A DNA stretch of 37,500 bases. Source: Candidatus Omnitrophota bacterium. GTDB taxonomy: Bacteria > Omnitrophota > Omnitrophia > Omnitrophales > Aquincolibacteriaceae. Every line of letters starts with the position of its first letter. Position 1 is the first letter of the stretch. This document shows, in pieces, positions 1,598 through 31,520 of this stretch. The notes beneath the pieces were generated by a model. The model saw only the letters and a list, made by a program, of their open reading frames with translations, was not told the DNA's origin and did no database searches. The position numbers and the translations under genes are program-made. The stretch spans positions 1 through 37,500 of the forward strand of contig JACPXL010000029.1 of assembly GCA_016196555.1 (NCBI GenBank), written 5' to 3'.

Positions 1598-2640
1598 ATC
1601 TTAAACCTTCTCTCTATGGCTTCGATTTGGAAGAAATCAAACGGCTCACAGTCCGCGAAAACATTCCTGCGTACCGGGGCGATCAAATTCTCGAATGGCT
1701 TTATAAAAAGCACGCCGCTTCTTTCGATGAAGCGAGAAATCTTCCGACCGCTTTGCGCAGCCGGCTCGCCGAAACCTATCTTTTTTCTTCGCTGACTTTG
1801 ACCGAGGCCGTCCCCTCAGCCAATCGCCAGTCCACCAAATTTCTTTTCCGCACCCAAGAAAGCGATATTCTTGAAAGCGTTCTCATTTCTCAGCAAGGGC
1901 GCGAGACCGTCTGTGTTTCCACTCAGCTTGGCTGCAAAATCGGATGCGTTTTTTGCGCTTCCGGAAAAGGAAAATTCGGCCGCAATCTGAGCGCCGGAGA
2001 AATTGTCGAACAGGTGGCCTTGATCGAAAAATCCCTTGGTAAACGCGTGACCAATATTGTTTTTATGGGAATGGGGGAGCCGCTTGATAATTTTGAGGCC
2101 ACGATGAAAGCGTTGAAAATCCTTCAGGAGCCATGGGGATTTGGGATTGGCGCGCGCCGCATTACGGTTTCAACTTCCGGGATTACGCCGAGAATTTTGG
2201 AATTCGTCAAACGAAGCGAAGGGCGCGTGCGCCTTTCAATTTCACTTCATTCAAGCCAGGAAAATAAGCGCACCGAACTTGTTCCGATCAACAAGCGCTA
2301 TTCTCTTCATGAACTCAACGAGGCCTTAAAAAAAATCCATGCGGACCTCAAGCGCGAAATCACTTTTGAGTACACCGTAATTGCCGGCGTGAATGACTCA
2401 AAGCAAGAGGCAGAAGGTGTGGCCAAAATGGCCAAGCCCTTGAACGCCAAGGTCAATTTAATCCCTTATAATCCCATCCGCGAAATGGAATTTAAAACGC
2501 CTTCCGGAGAAGTCGTGGATAAATTCCGCGATATTTTGAAAAGTCACGGAATTCGTGTGACGGTCCGCCAAACCGCAGGCCGTGATATTAATGCGGCATG
2601 CGGTCAGCTTCGCCTCGACCGGCAGGCGGCAGCGCAGTAG
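1594..2640 (+). CDS. rlmN: 23S rRNA/tRNA (adenine-C2) methyltransferase RlmN
   Basis: Radical SAM enzyme that methylates C2 of A2503 in 23S rRNA and A37 of some tRNAs. At 348 residues it is a normal size. The [4Fe-4S]-binding CxxxCxxC motif is C114-C118-C121 (GCKIGCVFC). C107 in ETVCVSTQ and C336 in AACGQL match the two cysteines used for methyl transfer in the family. The SAM-site motif FMGMGEPL follows. The N-terminal helical domain (DQILEWLYKK) is also intact. The start overlaps the permease stop by ATGA, indicating translational coupling. The last 53 bases overlap the convergent - strand gene. Confidence 0.97.
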   Translation: MNLKPSLYGFDLEEIKRLTVRENIPAYRGDQILEWLYKKHAASFDEARNLPTALRSRLAETYLFSSLTLTEAVPSANRQSTKFLFRTQESDILESVLISQQGRETVCVSTQLGCKIGCVFCASGKGKFGRNLSAGEIVEQVALIEKSLGKRVTNIVFMGMGEPLDNFEATMKALKILQEPWGFGIGARRITVSTSGITPRILEFVKRSEGRVRLSISLHSSQENKRTELVPINKRYSLHELNEALKKIHADLKREITFEYTVIAGVNDSKQEAEGVAKMAKPLNAKVNLIPYNPIREMEFKTPSGEVVDKFRDILKSHGIRVTVRQTAGRDINAACGQLRLDRQAAAQ

Positions 2641-4288
2641 GGGCGTATTGCCACAGCTTTTCCAGCTGCGGATTTTCCCCATAGATTTTTTCAAGCGCTC
2701 GAGTCATCCATCCGCCTGTCATCGCGTCTAAAAGCGAAGTCAATTCTTCAAGTCTGAGAATTGCCTCATAATGTTTTTGTTCCCCTTCGGCCGGCGCAAA
2801 AACTATTTCTACCTGAAGCCGGCGTCTTTCATAATAAATCCGCGTGGCTTCGGCAAGAAAATCATTACGCGTTTCCACCATGAGTTTTTCGCGATTATCG
2901 ATGGAGGTTTGATTGGAGCTGTAAATAAAATCTCCCAGGTCCCAGCGCATGTCCATGTCCCAGCCGCGGTCCATATCGCTAGGGCCTGTAATGAATCGGT
3001 CCGCATCATTCGTTCCACCGCGGTCGATATCAATATTATTATTTTGGGAGAAATCGCGGCCGAAGGAAAAACTGGGCAGAAGTGCCGCCATGCGCGATTC
3101 GGATTGCCAGCGTTTGATCTTTCCGTTTTTGAGATTGGCAAAACGCATCACCGCCTTGTGGATTTTCCCGGCTGTAGGTTCCAGATGAGTCAGCTGGGTA
3201 AAAAGCTGAGAGCGTTCCGGGGATGGAATCCATAAAGACGGCGGAGGCTTAATTTCATCCGGCAAAAGGGCATGGCGCATGACACCCTCGGCTGTGATGG
3301 CCGCCAAAACCTCGTTTTTTCCTTCGATTAACACAAGAGATTTTGCTCCCGGCCGCGCCATTCCCTCGAACATTTCTTTCCATCTTTGATTTTCAAAATC
3401 GTAGGAATAAATGCCCCGGCTTGTTCCGGCAAAAAGAGTTTGAGATTTGTTGGACCAGGCAAGCTGACGCATATCGATACTCGAAAGTCCGCTTTGTGAA
3501 AGGGCCCGCCACCTTAATCCTCCGTCCACACTTTGAAAAACACCTTTGCGTGTGGCGAGCCAGAACGAAGGATCGGTTTCGGAAGATCCCGCCAATTCAT
3601 AAAAATCATAGGAAGAAAGATTCTGCGGGATTTCTTCGCCGTTTTCTTCGTCAAAAAGATTTTCTTCGATTTCTAAAAATTCCCGGGCATCGCCGGACAA
3701 AAGAGAAAATACCGGCTGAAAGTCTTCCCCCTCTTTTGAAACATACAGACGATTTTCCGTGGCCGCAAAAATCTGTTCATTAAAAAACCGGACAAGGGGC
3801 ACAGAATGAAAACGCGGGAAGCCTTCCGATCGTTTCCAAGTATTGCCCCCGTTCTCGGATTCGAACAGCCCGTCTTCCGTGCCGAGAAAAAGATGGTCGG
3901 GATCATTTTCATCCACCGCTAAAGACAGAGGCGCATGTTTGTTTTCGTTTTGCGCGCGAAAAATTTCGTGTGCTTCGGCATTTCGAAAATCAAAACGCCA
4001 CACCCGGCTCGTCCCAAGAATAAAAACCGAGTCAGGGATTTCCTTGAAGCCGTAAATCCGCAGTATGTCATCGCGGCTTGCGTGTAAACGCCAAAGGGTT
4101 TTCCAATGGCCGTCCGAAGTTTCTTCGAAAATTTCGTGTGGGGATGCGGCGAGAAGTTTCCCTTGATACAGGGGATGTGGGACAAGAGAAAGTAAATCTC
4201 CCGCCGCAGGTTGAACCGGTTTTTCCCAGCCTTGAAATGCAAAGGCTAGGGAAACAAAACTAAAAAAAAATAAAAATCGTAATTTCAT
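2588..4288 (-). CDS. Secreted BNR/beta-propeller protein of unknown function
   Basis: A 566-residue protein with a clear signal peptide (MKLRFLFFFSFVSLAFA, cleavage after AFA), so it is exported. Residues from about 40 to 370 contain repeated propeller blades with sialidase/BNR-like Asp-box motifs: SENGGNTWKR near residue 148, SVDGGLRWRA near 252 and a weaker YDFENQRWKE near 299. This resembles the Ycf48/photosystem-stability-factor type fold, without implying that role. The C-terminal third is different, with a stretch rich in D, R and N and then a charged helical end (IYYERRRLQVEIVF). A strong ribosome-binding site (AAGGAGA) lies 6-7 bases before the ATG. A - strand promoter is proposed at 4373-4400. 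The 3' end runs 53 bases into rlmN. The exact function is not recognised. Confidence 0.8.
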   Translation of the reverse strand: MKLRFLFFFSFVSLAFAFQGWEKPVQPAAGDLLSLVPHPLYQGKLLAASPHEIFEETSDGHWKTLWRLHASRDDILRIYGFKEIPDSVFILGTSRVWRFDFRNAEAHEIFRAQNENKHAPLSLAVDENDPDHLFLGTEDGLFESENGGNTWKRSEGFPRFHSVPLVRFFNEQIFAATENRLYVSKEGEDFQPVFSLLSGDAREFLEIEENLFDEENGEEIPQNLSSYDFYELAGSSETDPSFWLATRKGVFQSVDGGLRWRALSQSGLSSIDMRQLAWSNKSQTLFAGTSRGIYSYDFENQRWKEMFEGMARPGAKSLVLIEGKNEVLAAITAEGVMRHALLPDEIKPPPSLWIPSPERSQLFTQLTHLEPTAGKIHKAVMRFANLKNGKIKRWQSESRMAALLPSFSFGRDFSQNNNIDIDRGGTNDADRFITGPSDMDRGWDMDMRWDLGDFIYSSNQTSIDNREKLMVETRNDFLAEATRIYYERRRLQVEIVFAPAEGEQKHYEAILRLEELTSLLDAMTGGWMTRALEKIYGENPQLEKLWQYAPTALPPAGRGEADRMPH

Positions 4289-5560: not shown

Positions 5561-5736
5561 AATCTAAATCCCTCCGGAAACTGCTTTTGCATCAACGCAT
5601 TTAAACCATCAAAATCAATCAAAATATAAAAAACAGGATGAAGTTATTTGAAGCTTTTAAAAAGTCGTGGTATCATTGTAACCTTATTAGTTTCAAGTCT
5701 CTGTGAGAAAATCGTTCATCAAGGGAGAAGCGTTTT
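5561..5736. other. Intergenic region between ychF and the giant gene
   Basis: There is no convincing terminator for ychF. The recognisable content is the promoter at 5648-5676 and a ribosome-binding site AAGGGAGAAG at 5721-5730. A 38-codon GTG frame (5703-5819) runs through the 3' half but lacks a ribosome-binding site and is not called a gene. Confidence 0.6.
5648..5676 (+). promoter_or_regulatory. Sigma70-type promoter for the giant gene
   Basis: TTGAAG (5648-5653), exactly 17 bases, then TATCAT (5671-5676). The bases just before the -10 (TCGTGG) match those in the ychF promoter. The predicted start near 5683 gives a leader of about 54 nt carrying AAGGGAGAAG before the proposed CTG start. 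Confidence 0.6.
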
Positions 5737-8700
5737 CTGCGAAAACTTATTTCGTCAGTTCTCATCTTCTGCTTTACGCTCGTAAGCATTTCCCCCACAA
5801 GTTTTTCTTTTTCGTCTGAGTCCCCTGAATCCGCAAAAAAAACTGAGCAGGAAATTTTATTTCCTCTCGAACTTCCTCAAGAATTAGGCTCGGTCGAAGC
5901 CGTTTATAAAGGAAAAAGCGCCCGCCCGGTCATTCTGCTTCAGAATGCGCATGCTATTCCTGATGCTCAAAAATCGCTGGCCCGACTTGTCGAGTATTTT
6001 TCCGAGCATCATGGTATCCATCAAATAGCCCTGGAAGGCAGCTCCGAAAAACTGGACGCTGCTTTTCTTCGAAGTTTCCCGGAAAAAGAAAAGCTCAGGA
6101 CCGTTTTAGAAACTTATCTTGACCGGGGGGAAATTTCGGGTGCAGCCGCCGCGGCCTTTTTGGCCGAAAAACCGGCCCATTATTTTGGAATCGAATCCCG
6201 GCCGCTTTATGAAAAAGGGATCGACCTTTTTCTAGAATCTCTCGCCAAAGAACCGGAGCTTGTTGAGAAATTAGATTTTCTGCAAAAAGAAATCGACCGC
6301 CAGAAAAAAGAGTTTTATCCGGCCCCCTTGTGGAAATTTGATCGAAAGTGGAAGGCCTTGGAGAAAAACAAAATTGAATTTGCCGAATTTTTGTCTTTTC
6401 TGAAAAGGTTTGGCGGGATCAACCTGGAAAAATGGGAAACCATGCAGCATGATGTGTTGTGGAAAAAAATCACGGCCTATCACGAACAAATCAAAAATCA
6501 TTTTCTCAATACCAAAACACTCAAAGCTCTCGCTAAAAAAGATGAAATACTGAATCTTACCGGGAAATTGATGCGGCTGGAATTAACCCGCGAAGAATGG
6601 GAAAAACTAGAATTGGCCGGCGATAAGCTTCCCTTCGATTCGAATAAACTTAAAACGCAGCAAAATTTTTACCGCAATGCCATGGCCCGCGAAAAAGTCA
6701 TGCTGGAAAATTGGGCCCGCAAAATTCCTGATACTTCTCAAACCTCCATGATTGTTGCCGGGGGATTTCATATGGAAGGCTTTCGCCAGACCTTCGAGAA
6801 GAATAAAACTTCTTATATTTTAATTTCTCCGGCCATTGAAGACCTTCCTCGGGACATACGATACCGGGAGTTTATGCGCGGCGAAGTATCGTGGAAAAAT
6901 TATTTTAAAATTAAAAATGGGCGCGTTGATTTATACGAAGCGTTTACGCGCGCAACACGCGATCGTCTGCTGGCTGAAGGCCGTCAATGGCTGAAGCCTT
7001 GGCGCGACAACATCATCCGAATACTTGCTGCAGAAAAACGCCTTGGTGAGGCCAAACAGTACACGCGACTCATCGATGAAATTCTTGCGCCTCAAATCGA
7101 TTCCACTCAAATCAAAACATTAAAAACTCAATGGCTGAATGAAGTCGACCGGTTTTTTGACGGCCTAAAAAATCTTCAGGACAAAAATCAGCTGAGCACC
7201 CCGAATATCATGCGTCTTGCCCATCAGCCCACGGCCGAATTTCCCTACGCTGTCCCTGCCGGCACCGTTCCCGCCCGGTGGCTTGCCGCAAAAACCATGG
7301 CCGCATCGGAAATGAGAATTGCGGCGGCGCCTGGAGCTGCTTTAAACCCAGCGGTTGCGGTTGAGCTCACGCCGCTTCAACAACTGGCCGCAAGTGCCGG
7401 CGGTGGTTTAAGAATTGGTTTTATTGCTGCCAAGGCGGGAGGTCCGGATGGCGTGAGCCGTGAAATGGAAAATTGGGCCCGCGTGCTTCGACGGGCGGGG
7501 CATTCGATTCATGCGCTTGTGGCTGATGGAGAAATGGTATTAGAGGAAGTTGAAGGTCAGGAACCAGTTATTAGTGGGCAGCTTCCGCCAGTCGCCAGAT
7601 ATGATTCGGAAGACAATCAAAAAGTTCTGGCTGCTTTTCCGAATCTTCCTCCTTCCACCCGCTATTCTCGCATTGAAGAGTTGCGCGCCAGCCAATTGAG
7701 CGATACGGCCTTGGACACATTAATTATGGGCCAAAGTGAAATCATCCGGGATAGTATCAAAAACTGGGTGAGGCTAAATAAAATCGATGTTCTCATCATA
7801 GAAAATCTCAACGTGCTGCCGGAGGCATTTCTCTTAAGCGTCGGAGTCAAACGTGCGATCGGAGATCTCCCAACTCCCGTTATCTTTCATAATTATTATG
7901 ACCCTTCTTATCTCGAAAGTGACGATTTTAAAGATTTCCCTCCGGGCCTTCAGCATCATCTCCGGGACAAATTTCCGCCTCAAAGCACTGATGTTTTTCA
8001 CACGGTATTGAGCGAAAAAGCCCAAGGAGAGTTTAGAGCCGCTTTTCCGGGAATTCCTGCGGAAGAAATTTCAGCAGACGTCATTTACAACGTTCAAGAT
8101 TTCAAAAATCCTCCTCCTCCCGATGATTACACACAAAGCTTTCGTGCCGATTTGGGTTTTGCCGAAGACGATATTATTTTCGCTTTTCCTTCCCGCCTTA
8201 TTTTTCGCAAAGGCCTCGATTTTGCCCTTCAGCTCATTAAAAATATTTCGAATCCCAAAGTTAAATTGCTGCTGATGGAAGAGGAGGGTGATGAAAATTA
8301 CAGGACATCGATTCAAAGATATATTGCGGAATTAGGCCTTGTCGATCGAGTCCGGTTTATGAAAGATCGTTCGGGTGTTAATCGTTTGGGTTTAAAGAGA
8401 TCTCCTCCGGGGGCCCCCGTGAAAATTTATACGGCGGACGATGTTTATCGAGTTGCTTCCGTGGTTTTGTATCCGAGTCAGGAAGAAAATTTTGGGGCGC
8501 CCATTTTGGATGCTATTCGCGCCGGGTTACCGGTCGTGGTTTATAAATATCAGGTTTTCAAAGATGAAATTCGTAAAGAGGGAATGACTTTTTTTTATTT
8601 TCCAACCATTACAAGTAATCCTCCAGAGCCCAAAAGATTAAGGCGTGCGTTAGGAGGAAGTAAAAATCAAGAGCGGTTTAAAACGTTGGCTTCGGAGATT

Positions 8701-11700
8701 ATGCGGCTTTTGGACGATTCAAACCGTAAAAATCAAATTACCGCTAAAAACCGCGAAATCGCCGGCCAGCATTTTTCTTATGAATATCTTGACGAGCGTT
8801 TAGCGGTTGCGATTGACACTGCGATCGCTAAACGCACTCAATCAAGCGATCATCTCATTCAGCAATACGATATACGCAGCGAAGATGCGAATGTCTTGTT
8901 GGAGAACTTGGAAGGTCTGAATAACGAAATAGAAGCTCTAAGCCGGGCTGGGCAGCAACAGCAAGGGGGAGAGCATGTCACGCGCGTTGCTTTAGTGAGG
9001 CTGCGGCGCGAGCGTTATGCGCCGGCAATCCGGAAGGCGCTTCAAAAACTTTCGGACAATCTCAGGCAGGAATTGCCGAGTCAGCGGGCGCTTATGCTGG
9101 CCATTGCAGAACGTTTGGGGGAACGTAAGCGTTTCGAAGAAAATGATTTTTTAATCAAACCTATTTGGAGATATCTCCGGGAGCATGACAGGTGGGATGT
9201 TATCGCCGGTGATAATGAAATTGTAAAATTATTGATTGCCCAGATGAAGAAAGAGGAAGCTTATCGCAATCGGCGCGAAACCTGGGTTTCCAAAAACGCG
9301 CCGGAATTACAGAACAACAACATTGTCTATTTTTCCGCAGAATACGGGCGAAAAAGCCTAAAAATTTACTCCGGCGGATTGGGAGTTCTTTCCGGCGATC
9401 ATTACAGCGGCGCCAGTGATTTCGGCCTAAAGTTTACGGCCATGGGACTGCTCTATAAGAAAGGATATTTTAAACAAAAACTCGGGGTGGACGGCCAGCA
9501 GCTCGTCGATTATGACTATCAAGGCATCAAATATGAAGATTTGCCTTTGCTTGAAGCTGGTGCCAACGGAGAAGAAATTATGATCGATATTCCGATGCCG
9601 GAAGCAGAGACTAATGTAAGGGCCAAGGTTTGGAAAGTGCTTTACGGAGAAACGGTTTTATATCTTTTAGATACTGACATAGATGGCAATAACCCGCATT
9701 GGCGTAAAATCACGGAGCGCCTTTATGAGAATGAGAATGGGAGTCATCAAAGAATGCAGCAATATTTTGCTCTCGGTGTCGGCGGCATGCTGGCACTTAA
9801 AAAACTTGGAATCGCTCAAGATAGTATTCATTTAAATGACGGGCATCCCTTTTTCACCGCCATGCAAGCCATTCGATTTGCGATGGATGAAGTCCCGGCA
9901 GAACACATTTGGGATAATTCAGAAGAAGGACAGATAAGATTCGAAATGGCTTTGGAAAAAGTCATGGCCAAAATCGTTTTTACCACCCATACGCCCATTG
10001 AAGCGGGCAATGAATCAGTGGAAGTGAACATCCTTCGCCCTTTCCTCGAGAAAATTTTTCCAAATAACCCTTATGCCGTCGACCGGTTACTCGCACTCGG
10101 GGATTATCACGGAAAATTTAGTCTGACCGTTTTTTCAATGCGAATCGCCCAGCACCGTAACGCGGTCAGCGAATTGCATGGGCATGTGGCGAGGAGAATG
10201 TGGCAGCATCTTTTCCCCGGGATGAAACTTGAAGAGGTTCCCATTGATCATGTTGTCAATGCTGTTCATCGAGAAAGCTGGCAAGCTCAGGAAATAGAAA
10301 AAGTATCTTCCGCCGTTTGGCAAGATGAGGGACTTGTTCGGAAAATGCAGGCGCCCCCGACAACATGGCAAGAAGATTTGGCCAGCGATGAGTGGGCCGA
10401 TGAAAATATTCCTATTGATTCGGAAGAGCTTTGGCAGGCTCACATCAAAAGAAAAGACGAGCTTATAAAAGAGATCATACGACGCAAAGAAAAAGCAGGC
10501 GTTATTAAAGATGATCTCGATTATTTCAAGGAGTTTAAATCAGAGGTTTTGACGCTAGGGTATGCCCGCCGATTCATTGAATATAAACGCGCCCTTCTCA
10601 TTCTGCGAAATCTCGACCGATTAGAAGCGATTGCCAAAAGGACCGGCAAACCCCTTCAAATTATTTTTGCCGGAAAAGCCCATCGGGCGGATGAAAAAGG
10701 CCAAGCTCTTATTGAAGAGCTTCATAAAAAAGCAAAAGACCTTCGCCAAAGAGGTAATTTCGTAAAAATTGCTTTTATCGAAGAATACAACATTGAACTT
10801 GCCCGTTATCTTGAGTCCGGTGTCGACGTTTGGCTCAATTCTCCCATTCGTCCGCGCGAAGCTTCCGGCACAAGCGGCATGAAAGCGGCCATGAATGGCG
10901 TCCTTAATTTAAGCACGAAGGACGGCTGGGTCACGGAAGGGATTATTCACGGAGTCAACGGCTGGCTTTATGGAGTGGAAGGCGTTGAGCGGAATGATTT
11001 TGCTGATATGGAAGCTTTATACGCACAACTTGATGAAGTGGCAGGCCTTTATTATCAGGATGGCCGGCAGCAATGGAAACGCATGATGAAAAAGGCGATT
11101 GTTTCCAGCGCGTATTATTTCGGCATGGAAAGAATGTTAATCGATTATTCGAAAAAAATGTATCAACCTGCAGCAGCTTCTTCAAAAGCCATGACCTGGC
11201 AAAAGGCAGAGGAAAGGGCAAGATGGAGAATGAACAATAAAAAGAATTTGCGCCGGCTTGCATCAGGAGATGCAAGGCCCGAGATTGAATCCGCCGAAGT
11301 TTCAAAAAATTTAGTTTTAGGCCAGGAGCATGAGATTTCCGTAGAAGTTGATTTTCACAACAGCTCCCCCGACACCCATGCGGCGGATTTATTTTTTGAG
11401 CCGGAACAGGATGCGCATGTGGAGAAAGAAAATCGCCGGATTTCGCAAACCGCGCGTTTAAAGCGAACGATCCCTTTGTCCGGCAGCCGTTACCGTTTTA
11501 TTTTTGCAGTGACACCGGAATTTACCGGCCGTCACTATCTTCATATTCGAGTTGCGCCTAAGGACCAAATTTCTTGGGAAAATTCGGCAGAACTTGCTGA
11601 TGCAACGAAATGGCTTCATCCTAAAGAGCCAGTTTATGTGTGGCAATTGAATATACTGCAATTTCGTGCCAATTATGTTAAGGACCAAAGACCTGTGGAG

Positions 11701-14700
11701 GAAGGATTGCCATTTTGGATACAGCTTCCGCCCGGAGTTCAACCTTCCGAAGTTCTTTGGGCTTCTGCAAGGACAGCAGACGGACAAAACGGATCATGGG
11801 CCAGCCGGGCCATTCCCATGCAGCTCATTCCAGGGGCAGAAAATTTATGGGGAGTGGTTGTTTCTAGAAAAGAATTCTTAGACTATGGGCCTTATGATTT
11901 TAAATTCATTGTGAGATTTGCCGATGGCAGAAAAGAAGAATGGCTGCCCGGTTCTTATCCCATCAATTCCAAAACACATAATGCGCATCTTCATATTCAT
12001 GCAGAAGATCCTTCCATGCATCGATCGAAAGTCATCGCTATTTTAGATGCAATGAGCCGAGACCCTGGGGTTAGAGTGCCGGCTTATGTTGCTTCAGATG
12101 CTGCGGCCCCTTCTGCGGAATCCATGAATCCTATGGAACTTGGCCCGCAGGCCATTCAAGTGCTTTTGAATACGCAAGATGAAGGGCCAGACGAATATAA
12201 TGGTTTTGCTTTTAGCAAAGGAGAGGGAGAGGGAAATTATGCCATTCAAAAAAGTAAATCGGGCTTTTTGGGATTTTTGGAAGGATACCGCCGATTAGCT
12301 GAAAGGCCGGATGAACTTAATACGAGCCTTCTTTATCACGCTAAAAATACGGACGGGGGAAATAGACCTTCAGGCGATATTCCTTATTATTTGCTCAACG
12401 TCATTTTTAAAGACACTTACTTGCCATCGCTTACCGGAGTTATTGCCGAAATTAGGGAAGTTTCTGAAAAAATGGCCCGCCCAGAAACCACAGATGAACA
12501 AAAAATAGCTTACACTAAAGAACTTTTAGATTATCTGGTCGCTTTCGCGCAAGGCCTTGCCTGGCAACTCACCATTGATTACGCAAAAAATGTGGAATAT
12601 GAAGGGGATGGGAAAATAAAAAGGGCCGTGGATGCTTTACAGCATCCCTCTCAAGGTAGGTTTCTACGCTGGCATTTAATTCATTTCTTAGACAATCATC
12701 ATGCGGAAAAATTGCAGACAACAGACGGTGAAGACGTTTATGCCTATGCCATTCCCTATGCTTTATTCGGCATACGTGCGCCGGATGGAGGCAATGCATT
12801 GCTTCTTATTAATATAAGAAAGCAGGTTTCTATTGTTGAGGGTGCCGAGAAGGCCGATTCTAATGTCAGATCCATAGGAATGAAAAAAGTATTAGGAGAG
12901 AGGCTTTGGGCACGAGAAGGAGGTTTTTTGCAAGAACGCAGTATCCCTAAAACAGCCAAAGAAGGAAAAAAAGGAGGAAGAATAGGACAAAAAGAAGTCG
13001 CAGACTTTAAAGGAACAACCCATCGCGTGAATATTCCCGGGAAACTTACCAGCGATGCTCCGGGGCCCATCAATTTAGAAATTTTAGGGTATGATTCCGC
13101 GGAGCCTGATCTCATGGAAGCTTACATTCAAGCGGCGATTAAAGGCCGGGATCATCCTACAGATTGGAGTGCGGCGCCCGAAGAATTGATTACCCGGCAA
13201 ATTACAGCATCGCTTGATAACGGCAAGGTCGCAGAAAGAACCAAAAGACTTTTAGATGAGATTGTAGGATTAGGGGCTTCGGCCGCTCGGGAGCGTTTTG
13301 GGGCAGATAACATTCCGGTGATTATGGCACTTATCGGAGCGATTGCACCCGATCGTTTAAATTCCATGCAAGATTGGCACCGTACTACTTATGACCATTG
13401 GAAGACTTTTTACGCGAGGGGAAATAATCGGGAAATTTTTGAACAGGGAACATTAACCATTATTCCTACAAGAACCACACGGGCTTTTATCATCAAACGA
13501 AGTCTCAATGGCCGTAATCGTTTTATTCTTATTCATCTAGCAAGAATCGAACAATTCGATTCCTCCGATGAAAAAACCAGCATTACGACGACAGAAATTG
13601 GAGCTTTGGATTTGGGTTCAGACCGTAATAAAAAGCATCAAGTTCAGAATGAATTTACCGGGCGTTTATATGCGCATGAGCATACCCATGAATCACTGAC
13701 TAGAACCGTTGATGAAGGCGGCGGCTGGCATTTGCGTGTTGGCAAAGACCGTTATCAGGGACTTAGCTGGGAAGATGCCGAAGTAAAAGCGGAAGGGGCC
13801 AGGCATAAGCTTGGTGATTTAACGGTTGAGGTCAATATAGAAGACCTTGGGACGAAGCAGGTTCAAAGCGAGAGCGAGGACCAGCCCGATACATTCTCAA
13901 GCCACGATAGTTTTGAACATTTTTTAGAAATTCTTCCTGATTTAGCCAATGCCGGAATCGGAAAAATGTATCTCACATGGCTTTATCAAATGAGCGAAAG
14001 CTCAACTAGAATTCATACCGGGAGAGACGGAGACCTCAACTTTATTACTGTCGATCGGAGGCGGGTAACAGTCAAGGGATGGAATTATCCCGGCAAAAGA
14101 TTGGAAACGACTTTACCCAATGGCCGGAGGGCAATTCTTCAGGATGATGCCGGCAATCCTTTTTCTATTATGATTGATCCTGAAACCGGTCTTCCCCGCC
14201 TAAATCCCCATATTTTTAAACCGGGCCAAGAAGGAGTTGATCAGTTAAAAATGCTCATTGAGAGACTTCACGCCATCGGCATCAAAGCTATTTTGGATTT
14301 TATTCCTTGGCTTGCTCCGGATGCAATCAATGAAAAAAATTATAAATGGACTTTATATAAAGAACTCGATGAACCAGCAGATAAAGAAGAGTGGGCTACG
14401 GCAGTCGAAGATAGCACAGAAGATATGTTTATTGTGAATCGATTGGCCAGGAATTCAGGTTATTTTGCTGTTCGTATTACAGAGGAGGGGAAAGAAAGAG
14501 TAATTTTGGTAAAACATTTTCGCGGGGAAAATATCGATCAGGCCATACTCAACCCTTTTCATGAAGAAGTCAGGGATTATTATTTTAAGTATTTAAAATT
14601 TTTGGTGGATTTGGGCGTCGATGAAGTCAGGGTGGATTTGGCCGCAGAACTTCTTAACGCAAAAGTAAGAGGTGCTGTGGAGGATCCTTCTTTGGCGATT

Positions 14701-16629
14701 AACAAAAAGCCGGAACACGAGGCGCATCGTTTTCGGGAAAATGACGAACTTTGGAGTCATTTGATTAAGCGGGTAAAGGATTATGCTGGGGAAAAACAAC
14801 AAGACTTTAAATTTATTATGGAAGCTTATAAAGATGAATACGGCTCGAACTGGCCGCGTGAAAAATTAGAAGAGCTGGGGGCCGACTCGCTTTATTACAA
14901 AGAAGTTTTCGACGAATATTTTAATCTTGAGAGACGATCATCGGGCGCTTCGCCGGCCAAGCTGTCGGATCAATTGAAGTATGCTTTTGATGTCCGGTAT
15001 AGCAAACGATTCATTATTTTTGGGTCTAATTTTGATGAAATGTCCATGGATGACATTGGCGGCGCCAAAGAAGCCATGCTCATGAAATTGTTTTTTTATG
15101 CCAATGCAGGTGTTCCCACCATGATTGCATTGAGAGATTTAATGGATGTGGGTCTTTTTCGAACCCTTCCTGGCGGCGAGATTAATCCATCAACCCATCT
15201 TCCGGATCTTTACAAACCGAGCGCCCATTCCTGGGAGGCTGATCCGGCAAGAATGTGGGACCGCTCAATATGGGAAGAAGATAATGATCCTAATTTTCCG
15301 CGGCGCGGACTCAGAAAAATTATTCGAGAAAGCCGCTGGCTGGCGCTTCTTCATCAATTTACCCATTCTTTAGCTGAAAAAGGGGAAGATTTTATAATTC
15401 ATCAATTGGGCACAAGCGATGGAAATGTGATGAGCGCCATGGCGCAAAGAGAACCGGAACAGCCCAAGCGCTGGAAAATTATAGTCAGCCGTCATAATTT
15501 GAATGATCAGGACACGTTTCCTGTGTCGGTTGATTTGCCGCATGAATTACGGACGGATGATGGAAATCATGTGGAAGCCATTGACGATATGACAGGACAA
15601 AAATTAAAAATTGAACATGGCAAAATTTGGCTGAATCTTGGCCCGGGTCCGCATAAGGCGGGAAGATTTATCAGCATTAGACCGATGACTCTTGCCGGTT
15701 CTGAGATGCGAGTCATTGATCATTCCTCACGTTTGGTGCTGCGGGCGCTTGCGACCAGGAAACTCAGCCGCAGTGAAGCGCGAATGGTAGCGGCATTGGG
15801 TGAACAAAATCGATTAGACGCATTAGAAACCGCGGCGCGAAAAAAAGCGGCTTCACCCCATATTTTCCGGCAATTTTTGCGGCGCCGAAACATTCTCGGA
15901 TTTGATTCCCCCGAAATTCAGCAGGCTTTCGAGGTCGAGGGATTTCTTTCTCGGCCGGATTATGAAGGACAAATGGATCAGGCCATGCAAATGCTTAAAA
16001 ATAAAATGATTCGCCGGGCGATAAAATCTTTAAACAAAAATCCCAAAGGCCGTTTGAATTATGCCGCCGTGTTTTCTCTGCTCGAAGCCGACGGAAAAAC
16101 CCTCGACTGGCTTTGGAATTATGTAGAAATCATTCAAGCCGTTAAAAAAATGGCGAAAAGCAAATTTCCTCACGCTAAGGTGGAAGGCAATATTCAATTT
16201 TTAATGCAATCTTCACAAATGCAAAGCGAGGCATTTAAGCGGTTTGCTTCTCGCGTAGACCGCTCGAATGAAGCGAAGAGAATCAATTTAGATGACGATG
16301 ATGCCATGGCCAGGCTCGAAAAATATTTGCGCGACAATAAAAGCGCTTTGATTTACGGCTTCGACAGACTGGCTGACAAATTAGCTGATTCGAAGTATCG
16401 GATTCGCATTGTTAAATCCCAAATTCCCATGTTTTTGGCGCTCCCGGCGGAAGGACTCATGACAAGCCATTTGGCTGCGGATGAGCAAGGCGTTAACGCT
16501 GAAAGCATTTTCAAAGTCCTCGAAGTCCTCCCCGATATGATGGTTTGGAACCGGAATTTTTTCGAAATCACTACCGAAGCCCTGCAGTTAATCGACCTTA
16601 TTCAGAGAAAAATCTCGACTTACGCGTAA
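5737..16629 (+). CDS. Giant secreted multidomain alpha-glucan enzyme (GT4, phosphorylase, GH13)
   Basis: About 3630 residues in one frame. No ATG, GTG or TTG occurs between the in-frame stop at 5704 and a TTG at 6160, yet this stretch is clearly protein. CTG at 5737 is therefore the likely start: it sits nine bases after GGAG and opens a signal-like peptide (RKLISSVLIFCFTLVSI). Modules in order: residues 60-420, ChaN/TraB-like (QNAHAIPDAQ, IALEG, GGFH345); 524-527, linker SEMR; 555-1035, GT4 glycosyltransferase with E917 and D925; 1190-1820, alpha-glucan phosphorylase with FSAEYG and GTSGMK, where K1716 is the PLP lysine; 1845-2100, beta-sandwiches; 2100-2700, unclear, possibly a decayed amylase (FLDNHH near 2319); 2720-3150, GH13 barrel with R2965/D2967, E3029 and D3100; 3210-3320, beta domain; second SEMR 3322-3325; helical tail. 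The modules imply alpha-glucan breakdown or remodelling at the envelope. Modules are well supported; the overall role is inferred. Confidence 0.88.
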   Translation: MRKLISSVLIFCFTLVSISPTSFSFSSESPESAKKTEQEILFPLELPQELGSVEAVYKGKSARPVILLQNAHAIPDAQKSLARLVEYFSEHHGIHQIALEGSSEKLDAAFLRSFPEKEKLRTVLETYLDRGEISGAAAAAFLAEKPAHYFGIESRPLYEKGIDLFLESLAKEPELVEKLDFLQKEIDRQKKEFYPAPLWKFDRKWKALEKNKIEFAEFLSFLKRFGGINLEKWETMQHDVLWKKITAYHEQIKNHFLNTKTLKALAKKDEILNLTGKLMRLELTREEWEKLELAGDKLPFDSNKLKTQQNFYRNAMAREKVMLENWARKIPDTSQTSMIVAGGFHMEGFRQTFEKNKTSYILISPAIEDLPRDIRYREFMRGEVSWKNYFKIKNGRVDLYEAFTRATRDRLLAEGRQWLKPWRDNIIRILAAEKRLGEAKQYTRLIDEILAPQIDSTQIKTLKTQWLNEVDRFFDGLKNLQDKNQLSTPNIMRLAHQPTAEFPYAVPAGTVPARWLAAKTMAASEMRIAAAPGAALNPAVAVELTPLQQLAASAGGGLRIGFIAAKAGGPDGVSREMENWARVLRRAGHSIHALVADGEMVLEEVEGQEPVISGQLPPVARYDSEDNQKVLAAFPNLPPSTRYSRIEELRASQLSDTALDTLIMGQSEIIRDSIKNWVRLNKIDVLIIENLNVLPEAFLLSVGVKRAIGDLPTPVIFHNYYDPSYLESDDFKDFPPGLQHHLRDKFPPQSTDVFHTVLSEKAQGEFRAAFPGIPAEEISADVIYNVQDFKNPPPPDDYTQSFRADLGFAEDDIIFAFPSRLIFRKGLDFALQLIKNISNPKVKLLLMEEEGDENYRTSIQRYIAELGLVDRVRFMKDRSGVNRLGLKRSPPGAPVKIYTADDVYRVASVVLYPSQEENFGAPILDAIRAGLPVVVYKYQVFKDEIRKEGMTFFYFPTITSNPPEPKRLRRALGGSKNQERFKTLASEIMRLLDDSNRKNQITAKNREIAGQHFSYEYLDERLAVAIDTAIAKRTQSSDHLIQQYDIRSEDANVLLENLEGLNNEIEALSRAGQQQQGGEHVTRVALVRLRRERYAPAIRKALQKLSDNLRQELPSQRALMLAIAERLGERKRFEENDFLIKPIWRYLREHDRWDVIAGDNEIVKLLIAQMKKEEAYRNRRETWVSKNAPELQNNNIVYFSAEYGRKSLKIYSGGLGVLSGDHYSGASDFGLKFTAMGLLYKKGYFKQKLGVDGQQLVDYDYQGIKYEDLPLLEAGANGEEIMIDIPMPEAETNVRAKVWKVLYGETVLYLLDTDIDGNNPHWRKITERLYENENGSHQRMQQYFALGVGGMLALKKLGIAQDSIHLNDGHPFFTAMQAIRFAMDEVPAEHIWDNSEEGQIRFEMALEKVMAKIVFTTHTPIEAGNESVEVNILRPFLEKIFPNNPYAVDRLLALGDYHGKFSLTVFSMRIAQHRNAVSELHGHVARRMWQHLFPGMKLEEVPIDHVVNAVHRESWQAQEIEKVSSAVWQDEGLVRKMQAPPTTWQEDLASDEWADENIPIDSEELWQAHIKRKDELIKEIIRRKEKAGVIKDDLDYFKEFKSEVLTLGYARRFIEYKRALLILRNLDRLEAIAKRTGKPLQIIFAGKAHRADEKGQALIEELHKKAKDLRQRGNFVKIAFIEEYNIELARYLESGVDVWLNSPIRPREASGTSGMKAAMNGVLNLSTKDGWVTEGIIHGVNGWLYGVEGVERNDFADMEALYAQLDEVAGLYYQDGRQQWKRMMKKAIVSSAYYFGMERMLIDYSKKMYQPAAASSKAMTWQKAEERARWRMNNKKNLRRLASGDARPEIESAEVSKNLVLGQEHEISVEVDFHNSSPDTHAADLFFEPEQDAHVEKENRRISQTARLKRTIPLSGSRYRFIFAVTPEFTGRHYLHIRVAPKDQISWENSAELADATKWLHPKEPVYVWQLNILQFRANYVKDQRPVEEGLPFWIQLPPGVQPSEVLWASARTADGQNGSWASRAIPMQLIPGAENLWGVVVSRKEFLDYGPYDFKFIVRFADGRKEEWLPGSYPINSKTHNAHLHIHAEDPSMHRSKVIAILDAMSRDPGVRVPAYVASDAAAPSAESMNPMELGPQAIQVLLNTQDEGPDEYNGFAFSKGEGEGNYAIQKSKSGFLGFLEGYRRLAERPDELNTSLLYHAKNTDGGNRPSGDIPYYLLNVIFKDTYLPSLTGVIAEIREVSEKMARPETTDEQKIAYTKELLDYLVAFAQGLAWQLTIDYAKNVEYEGDGKIKRAVDALQHPSQGRFLRWHLIHFLDNHHAEKLQTTDGEDVYAYAIPYALFGIRAPDGGNALLLINIRKQVSIVEGAEKADSNVRSIGMKKVLGERLWAREGGFLQERSIPKTAKEGKKGGRIGQKEVADFKGTTHRVNIPGKLTSDAPGPINLEILGYDSAEPDLMEAYIQAAIKGRDHPTDWSAAPEELITRQITASLDNGKVAERTKRLLDEIVGLGASAARERFGADNIPVIMALIGAIAPDRLNSMQDWHRTTYDHWKTFYARGNNREIFEQGTLTIIPTRTTRAFIIKRSLNGRNRFILIHLARIEQFDSSDEKTSITTTEIGALDLGSDRNKKHQVQNEFTGRLYAHEHTHESLTRTVDEGGGWHLRVGKDRYQGLSWEDAEVKAEGARHKLGDLTVEVNIEDLGTKQVQSESEDQPDTFSSHDSFEHFLEILPDLANAGIGKMYLTWLYQMSESSTRIHTGRDGDLNFITVDRRRVTVKGWNYPGKRLETTLPNGRRAILQDDAGNPFSIMIDPETGLPRLNPHIFKPGQEGVDQLKMLIERLHAIGIKAILDFIPWLAPDAINEKNYKWTLYKELDEPADKEEWATAVEDSTEDMFIVNRLARNSGYFAVRITEEGKERVILVKHFRGENIDQAILNPFHEEVRDYYFKYLKFLVDLGVDEVRVDLAAELLNAKVRGAVEDPSLAINKKPEHEAHRFRENDELWSHLIKRVKDYAGEKQQDFKFIMEAYKDEYGSNWPREKLEELGADSLYYKEVFDEYFNLERRSSGASPAKLSDQLKYAFDVRYSKRFIIFGSNFDEMSMDDIGGAKEAMLMKLFFYANAGVPTMIALRDLMDVGLFRTLPGGEINPSTHLPDLYKPSAHSWEADPARMWDRSIWEEDNDPNFPRRGLRKIIRESRWLALLHQFTHSLAEKGEDFIIHQLGTSDGNVMSAMAQREPEQPKRWKIIVSRHNLNDQDTFPVSVDLPHELRTDDGNHVEAIDDMTGQKLKIEHGKIWLNLGPGPHKAGRFISIRPMTLAGSEMRVIDHSSRLVLRALATRKLSRSEARMVAALGEQNRLDALETAARKKAASPHIFRQFLRRRNILGFDSPEIQQAFEVEGFLSRPDYEGQMDQAMQMLKNKMIRRAIKSLNKNPKGRLNYAAVFSLLEADGKTLDWLWNYVEIIQAVKKMAKSKFPHAKVEGNIQFLMQSSQMQSEAFKRFASRVDRSNEAKRINLDDDDAMARLEKYLRDNKSALIYGFDRLADKLADSKYRIRIVKSQIPMFLALPAEGLMTSHLAADEQGVNAESIFKVLEVLPDMMVWNRNFFEITTEALQLIDLIQRKISTYA

Positions 16630-18942: not shown

Positions 18943-19042
18943 GTCATCCTGAACCGCCGACCCTCTGCGAGGGCAGTAAAAAGCACGAGGCGGTGAAGGA
19001 TCTCGCGTCCTGAGATTCTTCGGCCTTCGGCCTCAGAATGAC
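18943..19042. repeat. Palindromic repeat, copy B
   Basis: A 100-bp element with inverted ends: GTCATCCTGA on the left and TCAGAATGAC on the right. The middle contains GACCCTCTGCGAGGGCAGTA and AAAAGCACGAGG, which is nearly identical to the middle of copy C, then a GGCCTTCGGCC stem-loop. It fills the gap between the TSUP gene and resB. A perfect 12-bp palindrome GTATAGCTATAC lies just before it (18894-18905). Confidence 0.8.
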
Positions 19043-19063: not shown

Positions 19064-20839
19064 TTGAGTTTTACCGCAGTTCAAGACAATAGGACCGCCG
19101 GTTTCGCCCGGGTTTTTTATTCTTTATTTAAAATTTCTGCCTCGCTCAAGCTGGCGCTTGTGATTCTATTCTCCCTCATGGCTTCGCTGGCTGCCGGGAC
19201 TTTTATCGAATCCATGCATGGCACTTCGGCCGCCCGCCTCATGATTTACGATTCTTTTTGGTTTCACAGCCTCCTTTTTCTTCTCGGCGTCAATGTGGCT
19301 GCCGCGGCCCTGGACCGTTTTCCTTGGAAAAAGAAACATGTGGGTTTTGTCATCACGCATCTGGGAATTATTATGATTTTGGCTGGTTCTTTTTTGACCA
19401 AACAGCAAATGGTGGATGGGCAAATGAGTATTACCGAGGGGGATACCGAGAGTTTTATCACTTTGCCCGAGCCTCTGCTTTATATTTTTTCTCAATCCAT
19501 GAAAAAAGATTGGCTCCTTCCGATTCAAGAGAAACCGTTTGCCTGGCAGGGAAAAGAAAATCTCTTGCCTGGAAATTTTTCGGAACTTCCGTTAAAAGTT
19601 TCTATGACGGCGAATTATCCCAAGGCAAGGCTGACCGAGAAATGGGAAGCGGACCCAGCAGCCGGTCCTGCGGCGCTCAAAGTGACGCTTCACAATTCCT
19701 TTATGAATCAGAATTTTTGGCTGGTCGAAAACGATGCCGAATTCGGAACCGTTCCAGCCGGCCCTGCTAAGCTTCGTTTCACGGACCAGCTTTTAAATGA
19801 AAATTTGCCGATGACCAATCAAAGCAGCTATCTGGAATTTCAATTCGAAAAAACCACAGCCCAAATTCCTTTGAAAGAAAATATACGGCTTCCGGCGGTT
19901 TTTCCTTTAAAAAATACGCCTTATCAAGTCACGATCAACCGGCTTTTTAAAAACGCTATGATCAGCGGCCGGAATCTTATCGAAAAAGAAGGCGGTTCCA
20001 ATCCCGCTGCGGAATTAATTTTGGACGGCGGCGGCATTCAGGAAAAACACACCGTTTTTTCCAAATACCCCGATTTCCCCACGCTTCACGGCCTTAAACC
20101 CAGTGCCGCCAGAGTCAAAATTTTTTACCGCTTCCCCGACGGCGGATCAAAGGGCGAAACTCACGAGCTTCGATTTGTTCAAAAAGACGGTGAACTCCTT
20201 TATCAAATTCAAAGCGGTGCCAAAATCAATTCCGGGAAAGTAGTTTTGTTTCAAGAGACGCCCACGGGCTGGATGGATTTAAATTTTCGGGTCGACGAAT
20301 TTTTCCCTCATGCGCAAAGAAACCGGATCTACACGCCCGAAGCCAATACATCCGAAGGCGAGGAAGTTTTCCCGGCCCTTAGGCTTCAGCTGGAAAATGA
20401 ATCGGAAACAAAATCTATTTGGCTTGGCCAGGGTTTGCGCGAAATCGTAGAAATGGGAAATGGCCGCTATATTTTTCTCTACGGTCAACGCAGAATACCT
20501 GCTGGGTTTCGCATTAAATTGCGGGATTTCCGTGTGAAAAATTATCCCGGCACCAATCGCCCGGAAAGTTTCGAAAGTGATGTCACGCTTCTTGACGATA
20601 TGCGCGGCGTAAGCCGTGATGAAACCATTTCCATGAATGAGCCGCTGGTTTATCGCGGTTTTCGAGTTTATCAGTCCGGATATCAGCAAAACCCGGGGGA
20701 GCCGGAAGTTTCAATTTTTTCCGTGGGCCGTGATCCGGGCGTTCCCGTGAAATATGCCGGGACCCTTGTCATGATTACCGGCATTCTCCTCATGTTTTAC
20801 ACGCGTTCATTTTCTTCCAATGCGGGAAAAATCGTATGA
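19064..20839 (+). CDS. resB: Cytochrome c biogenesis protein ResB/Ccs1
   Basis: Half of the system II cytochrome c synthetase (ResB-CcsA), which moves heme across the membrane and attaches it to CxxCH apocytochromes. It has 591 residues. N-terminal membrane segments lie around residues 30-50 (LALVILFSLMASLAAGTFIE), 65-80 and 94-112 (GFVITHLGIIMILAGSFL), followed by a long extracytoplasmic domain and a final segment near 565-582. Family features include the SLKLALVILF start and a late NEPLVYRGFRVYQSGYQ. The start is TTG at 19064, seven bases after AAGGAG. It overlaps ccsA by ATGA. The eight-heme cytochrome downstream is an obvious client. Confidence 0.92.
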   Translation: MSFTAVQDNRTAGFARVFYSLFKISASLKLALVILFSLMASLAAGTFIESMHGTSAARLMIYDSFWFHSLLFLLGVNVAAAALDRFPWKKKHVGFVITHLGIIMILAGSFLTKQQMVDGQMSITEGDTESFITLPEPLLYIFSQSMKKDWLLPIQEKPFAWQGKENLLPGNFSELPLKVSMTANYPKARLTEKWEADPAAGPAALKVTLHNSFMNQNFWLVENDAEFGTVPAGPAKLRFTDQLLNENLPMTNQSSYLEFQFEKTTAQIPLKENIRLPAVFPLKNTPYQVTINRLFKNAMISGRNLIEKEGGSNPAAELILDGGGIQEKHTVFSKYPDFPTLHGLKPSAARVKIFYRFPDGGSKGETHELRFVQKDGELLYQIQSGAKINSGKVVLFQETPTGWMDLNFRVDEFFPHAQRNRIYTPEANTSEGEEVFPALRLQLENESETKSIWLGQGLREIVEMGNGRYIFLYGQRRIPAGFRIKLRDFRVKNYPGTNRPESFESDVTLLDDMRGVSRDETISMNEPLVYRGFRVYQSGYQQNPGEPEVSIFSVGRDPGVPVKYAGTLVMITGILLMFYTRSFSSNAGKIV

Positions 20840-22611
20840 GTTACAATTCAGTCATTGCGAGGAGGCCGACCCTTTACGAGGGCAGTAAAAAGCACGAGGC
20901 CGACGAAGCAATCCCGTGTTTAAAAGCGAGATTGCTTTGCTCACTTCGTTCGCTCGCAATGACAATTTTGGTTTCAGGTTTTTGTCTTCCTTTTGCCCAC
21001 GCTTCTTCCGCCGTGACAATTCTTGAGTCCATTCCGGTGCAATATGCAGGCCGCGTTAAACCCTTTCAGAGTTTTGCAGAAGAAGCAGTTCTTTATGTGA
21101 CCGGTAAGAAAATTTTTAAACGTACCGCCGCGACCAAGCTCGTTTGGCAATGGATGTCAGAACCTGAAAAATGGAATGTGGAACCCATGATTCCGGTTTC
21201 CCATCCCAAAGTTCGTGAAGATTTTGGCCTGATGCTGGTCGGTCATCGCGTTTCTTGCGAAGTGGTATTGGGCCATCATGTTTTTTTAAAAGAAGTAGAG
21301 TCCGCGATGCAGAGACGCCAGAAAAAAGAAAAACTTTCTCTCGAAGACCAAAAACGCGTGGAAATTTATGAACGGGCGATTTTCTTCCGCGAAATCGGAG
21401 AAGGAAAAATTCCCGGCTGGGTCGCGCATCCGGAAAATCTTTCCGCGGGCTGGCTTCCTTTTCAGGGCATAGTCAGTGAGCAGGGCAAACAAACTCTTTC
21501 CGGATTTTTCCCAGAGGATAAAATTTCCAGATTGTCGAATGCCCTTCAGGAAGTTTTAGCCGCTTTCCGGCAAAACCCTGAATCTCCAGAAGCTGCCGTG
21601 TCCGCGGCCGAATTTTCATTGTCGCTCGAAGATCTTTTTGCCAGCCGAGGCATGATGCTTGACCGTAAAATTCTTTCGATGGAAGTGACTTACAATCATC
21701 TTCATCCCTTTCGCTGGGCCTGGATATTTTATTTTACAAGCGTATTATTTTTCTTATTTTTTGCCGGAATTAAAAAAAATCAGCTCGCCTTTGGAACAAG
21801 CTTAGCTGCATTTCTGGCCGGCTTTTTTATGCATTCTTACGGATTTTATTTGCGCTGCCAAATTGCGGGACGTCCTCCCGTGACGAATATGTATGAATCC
21901 ATGATTTGGGTGTCGTGGGCCGTTATCTTATTTTCTCTGATTCTGAGTTTGATTTATCGCGCATCATTTATACGCAATGTGGCCGCTTCACTGGCCGGAT
22001 TTGCACTCGTGCTTGCCGGAGGATTTCCGGTGGCGCTTGACCCGACGATTTCCCCGCTCGTTCCGGTTTTGCGCAGCAATTTGTGGCTGTCGGTTCATGT
22101 GCTGACCATCACGTTAAGCTACGGAGCTTTTTTTCTGGCTTGGGGACTGGGCCATGCCGTGATTGCGGCCTATGCTTTTTCCAAACAAAAGGAAACACCG
22201 ATTAAATTTTCTCAATATTTATACCGCACCCTTCAAATCGGAGTGATTTTGCTGGCGGCCGGGACTGTTTTGGGCGGCGTATGGGCGAGCTATTCCTGGG
22301 GGCGTTTTTGGGGATGGGACCCGAAAGAAACCTGGGCTTTGATCGCGCTTTTGGGATATTTGACCGTGCTTCATGGACGATTTACCGGCTGGTTGGGAGC
22401 TTTTGGTATTGCTATGGGATCGGTGATTGCCTTTTTAGGTGTGCTGATGGCCTGGTACGGCGTCAATTATGTTTTGGCCGCCGGACTTCATAGTTATGGG
22501 TTTGGCGGCGGTGGTCTTCATTATGTCCTTTTGGCCATTTTGATCGACTTATGCACCGTCTCGTTTTTAGCGATAATTTACAAACGCAAATCAAGATTGA
22601 TTGCCTCTTAA
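20836..22611 (+). CDS. ccsA: Cytochrome c biogenesis protein CcsA/ResC
   Basis: The heme-handling partner of ResB. The tryptophan-rich WWD heme-binding motif is intact (GVWASYSWGRFWGWDPKETW, near residues 480-500), followed by HGRFTGWLG and HSYGFGGGG. About eight membrane segments occupy the C-terminal half. The N-terminal half is a periplasmic domain (IPVQYAGRVKPFQSFAEE) found fused to CcsA in several phyla. The ATG at 20836 overlaps the resB stop, but residues 6-42 are encoded by palindromic repeat copy C. An in-frame ATG at 20959, at the very end of the repeat, gives a cleaner signal peptide (MTILVSGFCLPFAHASSA). The start is thus uncertain between 20836 (coupled) and 20959. Confidence 0.9.
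   Translation: MSYNSVIARRPTLYEGSKKHEADEAIPCLKARLLCSLRSLAMTILVSGFCLPFAHASSAVTILESIPVQYAGRVKPFQSFAEEAVLYVTGKKIFKRTAATKLVWQWMSEPEKWNVEPMIPVSHPKVREDFGLMLVGHRVSCEVVLGHHVFLKEVESAMQRRQKKEKLSLEDQKRVEIYERAIFFREIGEGKIPGWVAHPENLSAGWLPFQGIVSEQGKQTLSGFFPEDKISRLSNALQEVLAAFRQNPESPEAAVSAAEFSLSLEDLFASRGMMLDRKILSMEVTYNHLHPFRWAWIFYFTSVLFFLFFAGIKKNQLAFGTSLAAFLAGFFMHSYGFYLRCQIAGRPPVTNMYESMIWVSWAVILFSLILSLIYRASFIRNVAASLAGFALVLAGGFPVALDPTISPLVPVLRSNLWLSVHVLTITLSYGAFFLAWGLGHAVIAAYAFSKQKETPIKFSQYLYRTLQIGVILLAAGTVLGGVWASYSWGRFWGWDPKETWALIALLGYLTVLHGRFTGWLGAFGIAMGSVIAFLGVLMAWYGVNYVLAAGLHSYGFGGGGLHYVLLAILIDLCTVSFLAIIYKRKSRLIAS
20851..20963. repeat. Palindromic repeat, copy C, inside the ccsA reading frame
   Basis: A 113-bp element with perfect 10-bp inverted ends, GTCATTGCGA and TCGCAATGAC. 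It contains the GAGGGCAGTAAAAAGCACGA block shared with copy B. Its left part resembles copy D, and its right end matches copy A. It is open in the ccsA frame and its terminal AATGAC supplies an in-frame ATG. Confidence 0.85.
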
Positions 22612-22615
22612 AAAC

Positions 22616-23479
22616 ATGATAAATTCGCCCATTCAAAAAGATTCCGGAAGAAAACTTTTTTTTGGCCTTTTTATTTTTCCGCTTTTGATCGCGGTCGGGA
22701 TGGCTGTTTTGCTTTGCACAGTCGTGCTTCTGACGCGTGAAACGGAAACGCCGGAATCTTTGATCATGGCCATTAAAACCGGCGCCCCCAGCAAACGCTG
22801 GCAAAAAGCGTTTGAGCTTTCGAATGAACTTAATCAAGGCCGGGGCATGATACGGGCGGAGGGAGTGATGAAAGAAGTCATTCACATTCTCAACGAACGT
22901 GAAGAATACGACAGCCAGACCCGTTCTTATATGGCAATTGCGCTCAGCCGGTTCAAAGAGCCGGAAGTCATTCCAGCGCTTCGGGAAGCTTTGAAGAAGG
23001 AACAGGATCCGGAAGTCGAGCTTCATATTATATGGGCGCTCGGGATTCAAAGCGCCAAAGAAGCTGTAAAAGATATTCATCCTTATCTTGAAAGCGAACG
23101 TGAAGATGTCCGGGCCATGGCGGTTTATGTGCTCGGAGTTTTGCAGGACAAAACCAGTGTTAAGCTGCTGGAGCCTTTGCTGGATGATGAAGCCCGCGAT
23201 GTCCGGTGGAACGCGGCCTTGAGTTTGGCCCGGCTCGGAAGTGATGCCGGATATGCGCATTTGGTCAAAATGCTGGACCGTGAAAGCCTGAAAAATTTCG
23301 AAGGACTGCCGGACGATAAAATTGAACAAATTATGGTCAATGCAGTTAAAGGAATAGGACTGCTTGGTCGTAGCGATTCTTTGAGCCTGCTCAATCAGCT
23401 TGCGAAAAATGATTCGAGTTTAAAAGTTCGCCAGGCCGCAATAGAAGCCGTCCAGTATCAAAATCAGAAAGTTACTTGA
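22616..23479 (+). CDS. Membrane-anchored HEAT-repeat protein
   Basis: A 287-residue protein with a short basic N-terminus, one membrane segment (about residues 15-40, LFFGLFIFPLLIAVGMAVLL) and a long extracytoplasmic part made of HEAT/PBS-lyase-type helical repeats. Repeated units look like EVIPALREALKKEQDPEVEL, VRAMAVYVLGVLQD and VRWNAALSLARLGSD. ATG at 22616 follows the ccsA stop by four bases; an in-frame TTG at 22601 is a less likely start. Its stop overlaps the Rieske gene ATG. HEAT repeats bind proteins, so an assembly or scaffold role for the adjacent cytochrome complex is a reasonable inference. Confidence 0.82.
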   Translation: MINSPIQKDSGRKLFFGLFIFPLLIAVGMAVLLCTVVLLTRETETPESLIMAIKTGAPSKRWQKAFELSNELNQGRGMIRAEGVMKEVIHILNEREEYDSQTRSYMAIALSRFKEPEVIPALREALKKEQDPEVELHIIWALGIQSAKEAVKDIHPYLESEREDVRAMAVYVLGVLQDKTSVKLLEPLLDDEARDVRWNAALSLARLGSDAGYAHLVKMLDRESLKNFEGLPDDKIEQIMVNAVKGIGLLGRSDSLSLLNQLAKNDSSLKVRQAAIEAVQYQNQKVT

Positions 23480-24129: not shown

Positions 24130-24154
24130 TCTGGAATGGAAGGAGTAAGTCTTT

Positions 24155-24961: not shown

Positions 24962-24965
24962 CATT

Positions 24966-25126: not shown

Positions 25127-25157
25127 TTCGCAATAACAGCAAAATTGGGTTTTGATC

Positions 25158-26240: not shown

Positions 26241-26245
26241 TTATC

Positions 26246-29065: not shown

Positions 29066-29086
29066 ATTTTAAAAAGGAGAATTTCC

Positions 29087-31519: not shown

Positions 31520-31520
31520 C

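Follow-up and report, generated by a model that had tools for sequence, protein, structure and literature searches.

A giant alpha-glucan multi-enzyme frame of an Omnitrophota bacterium and the pentapeptide tags that punctuate the giants of its clade

Does a single very long reading frame that joins several alpha-glucan enzymes behind a predicted export signal encode one permanent machine, or a chain that is divided after synthesis? The question is raised by a 37,500-nucleotide stretch of DNA (hereafter the window) from an Omnitrophota draft genome (1.69 Mb, 86% complete). An initial annotation had read its positions 5737-16629 as one uninterrupted frame of about 3630 codons encoding a single-chain alpha-glucan machine, and reading of that frame indeed found 3,630 codons over 10,893 nt with zero internal stops (Table 1). 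The frame contains no ATG, GTG or TTG from the upstream stop (TGA 5704) as far as the head motifs; its first conventional start, TTG 6160, is the one that a gene caller would be expected to choose. A start at that position would cut off the signal as well as residues H72 and E100, both invariant in 39 heads. Because no conventional start precedes the signal and TTG 6160 loses these residues, the true start is likely to be CTG 5737, or else the start codon carries an assembly error.

Table 1. Features of the giant ORF and of its surroundings, in window coordinates
Feature	Residues	Position	Strand	Basis or remark
Shine-Dalgarno-like AGGGAG		5722..5727	+	9 nt before CTG 5737; sequence
Giant ORF	3,630 aa	5737..16629	+	414 kDa; probable CTG start
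Hydrophobic N-terminal export signal (predicted)	1-~30	5737..5826	+	hydropathy; similar N-termini on other heads
Head domain	35-495	5839..7221	+	Tiki/ChaN/EreA-like by motif
Disordered linker	499-544	7231..7368	+	pLDDT<50; contains tag ASEMR
SEMR of ASEMR, head/cargo junction	524-527	7306-7317	+	sequence
GT4 glycosyltransferase	559-1021	7411..8799	+	Pfam PF00534, NF041101
Alpha-glucan phosphorylase, DUF3417 + TIGR02094 core	1150-1811	9184..11169	+	profile matches
PLP lysine of phosphorylase	K1716	10882-10884	+	alignment
Conserved region, possibly beta-sandwich	1840-2230	11254..12426	+	kept in G005, G007, G010, G033
Conserved middle region	2231-2660	12427..13716	+	kept in G005, G004, G019, G003, G014
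GH13 barrel + C-terminal beta domain	2692-3316	13810..15684	+	AlphaFold2/Foldseek; D2967, E3029, D3100
Low-confidence linker	3318-3412	15688..15972	+	AlphaFold2; contains GSEMR, RSEAR
SEMR of GSEMR, cargo/tail junction	3322-3325	15700-15711	+	sequence
RSEAR	3345-3349	15769-15783	+	sequence
Conserved C-terminal tail	3325-3630	15709..16626	+	homology; folded part about 3413-3619

By hydropathy, the N-terminal segment is the sole strongly hydrophobic stretch of the giant ORF, and a comparable positive-hydrophobic segment opens nearly all of the heads whose N-terminus is complete. The only cysteine among the 3,630 residues (C12) lies within this segment, as against 0.93% cysteine in the neighbouring genes; over 28 giants the cysteine content is 0.09% versus 0.98% in 261 other ORFs, an approximately ten-fold depletion. 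The near-absence of cysteine and the signal-like N-termini of other heads strengthen the export reading already proposed in the initial annotation, and we strongly infer that the product is exported. On the opposite strand, the ORF at window 2588-4288 (566 aa) also has a signal-like N-terminus and no cysteine and fits the cysteine-free exported proteins of this genome. Downstream of the giant ORF, a 36-nt direct repeat (94% identical, window 18956-18991 and 20865-20900) has its second copy in the opening part of the ORF at 20836-22611, and a putative respiratory cluster was recognized by eye at window 19064-33891, with ResB/CcsA-like, Rieske, cytochrome b, multihaem cytochrome c, CtaA/CtaB-like and SCO-like genes.

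The enzyme modules named in the initial annotation were confirmed. The GT4 module matched PF00534 (Glycos_transf_1, E-value 1e-18, 67.9 bits against a cutoff of 26.4) and, over its entire mapped length, NF041101 (99.5 bits), while TIGR02094 aligned full-length over residues 1196-1811 with 558.6 bits (cutoff 191.7). Within the latter, K1716, to which the initial annotation had pointed within GTSGMK, aligns with the PLP lysine of stand-alone enzymes, and this motif and RRFxxYKR keep the phosphate-site residues; the active-site motifs are retained in an alignment of five giants and stand-alone relatives. For the GH13 barrel the Pfam match (PF00128) remained just sub-threshold, at 20.7 bits for a gathering score of 22. 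Foldseek comparison of its AlphaFold2 model with GH13 structures (neopullulanase, GlgE) nonetheless returned a (beta/alpha)8 barrel with an E-value of 3e-16 and a probability of 1.00, and the catalytic-type residues previously pointed out are conserved, D2967 and E3029 in 6/6 aligned giants and D3100 in the 5/5 that align there. A viral origin was rejected, the GH13 part having no viral relative. As a rule, alpha-glucan phosphorylase stands alone in the cytosol as an enzyme of about 700-850 aa. The embedded module resembles the GT35/TIGR02094 enzymes in being full-length and in its PLP lysine and active-site motifs, but differs from them in being fused, cysteine-free and predicted to be exported; phosphorylases embedded in giants contain 0-3 cysteines each, compared to 2-8 when stand-alone.

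The same module order was found in a second Omnitrophota genome (G005), whose frame displays GT4, phosphorylase, two conserved regions, GH13 and tail at 36-38% identity and leaves its contig before reaching a head. Together with the many head paralogues described below, this syntenic relative bears out the kinship with Omnitrophota giants that had been suggested for the ORF. The tail was found in 12 genomes, every one of them from the family of the window ORF. Among other giants, one (L035, G010:C7) combines sigma-70 region 4, GH77, glycogen debranching enzyme, phosphorylase and starch synthase modules, and a repetitive cysteine-poor giant of 4,460 aa (L114, G000:C13) has no tags.

The initial annotation had called the N-terminal head domain ChaN/TraB-like. 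Residues H72, E100, R318, GG342-343 and H345 are invariant across 39 aligned heads, in a pattern that reads Q-D-A-H72, E100-G, R318 and GGFH345, and paired histidine motifs with an acidic residue are what we take to be the pattern of the Tiki/ChaN/EreA superfamily. Individual heads match Pfam models of this type at just E 0.004-0.007; no significant match of the head to the superfamily was obtained with curated profiles, and the head profile A4 retrieved zero members of it from the PDB. A 560-residue AlphaFold2 model (mean pLDDT 84.6) contains one confidently modelled domain, residues 35-495, whose best PDB fold match is the erythromycin esterase EreC (E 0.16, prob 0.33, TM 0.17). The head thus shares with the Tiki/TraB/ChaN/EreA superfamily its invariant H, E and GGxH motifs and weak profile matches, but has a long helical insertion and no significant profile or fold match. 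Membership of the superfamily is plausible and we treat it as a lead.

The head is widespread: it was detected in 73/97 Omnitrophota genomes, often in multiple copies, in frames of up to ~12,000 codons (ORFs reaching 36 kb). A stand-alone secreted head protein, mostly of 700-760 aa, occurs as one locus each in 22/27 genomes of the family (including L101, G000:C85), and its gene is divergent to an adjoining giant in G016, G019, G021, G022, G006, G018 and G025. Outside the family, tagged lineages included, no single-copy stand-alone head was found at the threshold used. Both this head-bearing family and a pentapeptide at module borders had been missed by the earlier interpretation.

The pentapeptide was found by inspecting module borders, where SE[LMV]R recurred after the head and before the tail. 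In the giants of one Omnitrophota subgroup it takes the consensus [RK][SA]E[LVMATI]R and sits in the stretches between folded modules. A set of 28 giants, 161,094 aa in all, holds 136 copies of the strict form [RK]SE[LMV]R; other ORFs hold two in 93,585 aa, one in a head-bearing ORF and one in a frame adjoining a giant. In an unbiased 5-mer scan, RSELR, RSEVR, RSEMR and RSEAR ranked as the top four of all 5-mers. A second batch of giants, retrieved once the tag had been defined, yielded 224 copies of its loose form over about 101,000 aa, against 13 in the 93,585 aa of other ORFs. Sequence constraint around the tags is almost wholly confined to the five positions. A composition effect was rejected, since residue usage is similar across dialects and the expected count far lower, as was a DNA repeat: codons vary (118 distinct 15-mers among 126 tag sites), which indicates a protein-level signal. 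Among the papers searched, none reported such a tag and none linked Omnitrophota to polyproteins.

The placement of the tags follows module boundaries. Out of 149 tags in ten giants, one fell inside a domain mapped by Pfam (a partial mapping) or as head, where 16.9+-3.8 were expected, and 0/20,000 random placements gave so low a count; this lone tag sits right where a head match ends. A G016 giant has tags on either side of glutamate dehydrogenase, malic enzyme, IMPase, methyltransferase, ACP and MraZ, and in G010 they frame NDK, 32 aa before and 7 aa after it; REC is also among the tag-framed modules. In the window ORF, both junction tags lie in linkers of low AlphaFold2 confidence and align with R/K/Q-SE-R sites of relatives, but they are weaker forms with A or G at position -1 instead of R or K, so that processing is less certain for this particular protein than for its relatives.

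Tag variants also differ from genome to genome. The tag-variant similarity of giants was 0.81 within genomes versus 0.64 between genomes (24 within-genome pairs; p=0.0002, at the floor set by 5,000 permutations, with genomes treated as unrelated), and in G014 RSELR occupies 36/36 sites in four giants with unrelated flanks. The simplest reading of these dialects would be one recogniser per genome. Tags are present in families f1, f3, f6 and f8; the tagged subgroup takes in the family of the window ORF and at least three others of its order. They are absent from giants in G070, G057, G063, G074, G085, G048, G027, G038 and G039, of which the last three belong to the same order as the tagged families and the others to more distant families. 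These tagless giants, with or without heads, reject the idea that the tag is general to all Omnitrophota giants. Heads occur without tags in G070, G057, G063, G027, G038 and G039, so the presence of a head is not enough to account for the tag.

How, then, should the single frame be understood? The frame itself is open throughout, as the initial annotation stated, but because the giants of the clade are punctuated at module borders by the pentapeptide, a processed or docked multi-enzyme precursor appears more likely than the permanently single-chain machine it had envisaged. On balance we lean towards export followed by sequence-specific cleavage at the tags. The N-terminal signal of the head would send the whole chain through Sec, and a trans-acting sequence-specific recogniser, with a single specificity in each genome and most probably a protease outside the cytoplasm, would act at the tags, releasing head, cargo modules and tail. 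Processing of the window ORF would yield a cargo of ~2,800 residues (GT4, phosphorylase, two conserved regions, GH13), which may remodel alpha-glucan or phosphorolyse it, either outside the cytoplasm or inside a partner cell; the initial annotation had suggested host or storage glucan at the cell surface as a possible substrate. Against this scheme, enzymes that depend on NAD, PLP or phosphate would have difficulty working outside a cytoplasm, neither junction tag of the window ORF has R/K at -1, and no protease emerged from the three Arg/caspase-type families searched. Clostripain, gingipain and caspase families are unlikely as the tag processor, being absent or rare among 97 genomes (C11 absent, C14 in 3/97, C25 in 4/97), and the stand-alone head was rejected as a universal processor given its confinement to 22/27 own-family genomes at the threshold used. 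More tentatively, the clade may possess an exported bacterial polyprotein system. Each genome would string many whole enzymes and regulators of cytosolic type behind a shared secreted head, and after cutting at the pentapeptide peculiar to that genome these would be delivered outside the cell or into the cytoplasm of a partner; the window ORF would supply the alpha-glucan module.

Linker position, enrichment and genome dialect would suit any co-evolving recogniser, including a surface or envelope protein to which an intact giant docks or is anchored through its pentapeptides as a cellulosome-like string of enzymes, for which the conserved tail of the 12 own-family genomes could serve as an anchor. 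We regard this arrangement, the main alternative, as rather unlikely, in that entire single enzymes (NDK, ACP, MraZ) frequently stand between tags, as release predicts, and no tag-binding partner was found. That the modules are largely decayed housekeeping copies, kept for bulk as coat or storage and not for catalysis, is improbable. Sigma-70 region 4, MraZ and ACP are indeed odd cargo for an exported protein, and in a G005 giant (L033, G005:C168, residues ~30-40) the UDP-glucose/GDP-mannose dehydrogenase module has GYGGDQLP at the expected catalytic-cysteine motif, perhaps a casualty of cysteine exclusion; however, the phosphorylase and GH13 active-site residues are conserved between genomes, and the G016 GDH, epimerase and IMPase retain their signature motifs by eye. 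We give least weight to the possibility, which seems very improbable, that the N-terminal segment serves as a membrane anchor and that the protein remains in, or comes back to, the cytoplasm, where its enzymes would act on intracellular glycogen. PLP and phosphate are cytoplasmic, and the window ORF holds the sole DUF3417-type phosphorylase match of its genome, at the completeness given above, but the cysteine depletion of the giants and the signal-like N-termini across heads argue against it.

Giant ORFs have been described in Omnitrophota, up to 39,678 aa in Velamenicoccus archaeovorus, and proposed to be extracellular and polysaccharide-active; they were called poorly conserved, with few annotated domains and multiple transmembrane helices (Seymour et al. 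2023, PMC10066038). The window ORF shares with them the phylum and the huge single frame, but at 10.9 kb it is below the 20 kb class, it has annotated modules, a shared head and punctuation tags, and hydropathy reveals no transmembrane helix beyond the signal. Exported glycogen enzymes have a precedent in the PVC group, since chlamydial GlgA, GlgB, GlgX, GlgP and MalQ have signals for type III secretion (PMC4829429). Both cases concern PVC bacteria with glycogen enzymes outside their own cell (here predicted), but the chlamydial enzymes are separate proteins, each with such a signal, whereas the window ORF would form one Sec-type chain. Complete units, a short recurrent site and one frame are features that the Omnitrophota relatives share with viral and eukaryotic polyproteins and prohormones, from which they differ in being bacterial and exported, with an enzyme cargo and with a protease and cleavage that are here putative.

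We conclude that the window protein is a variant of the Omnitrophota giant kind and that the punctuated architecture of its clade is the surprising part. A shared head and a border-marking tag would allow giants to be parsed into units and their products to be predicted. If the tags are cut, they would reveal a bacterial export route for strings of housekeeping enzymes, which would bear on the carbon supply of these host-associated cells, extracellular alpha-glucan included.
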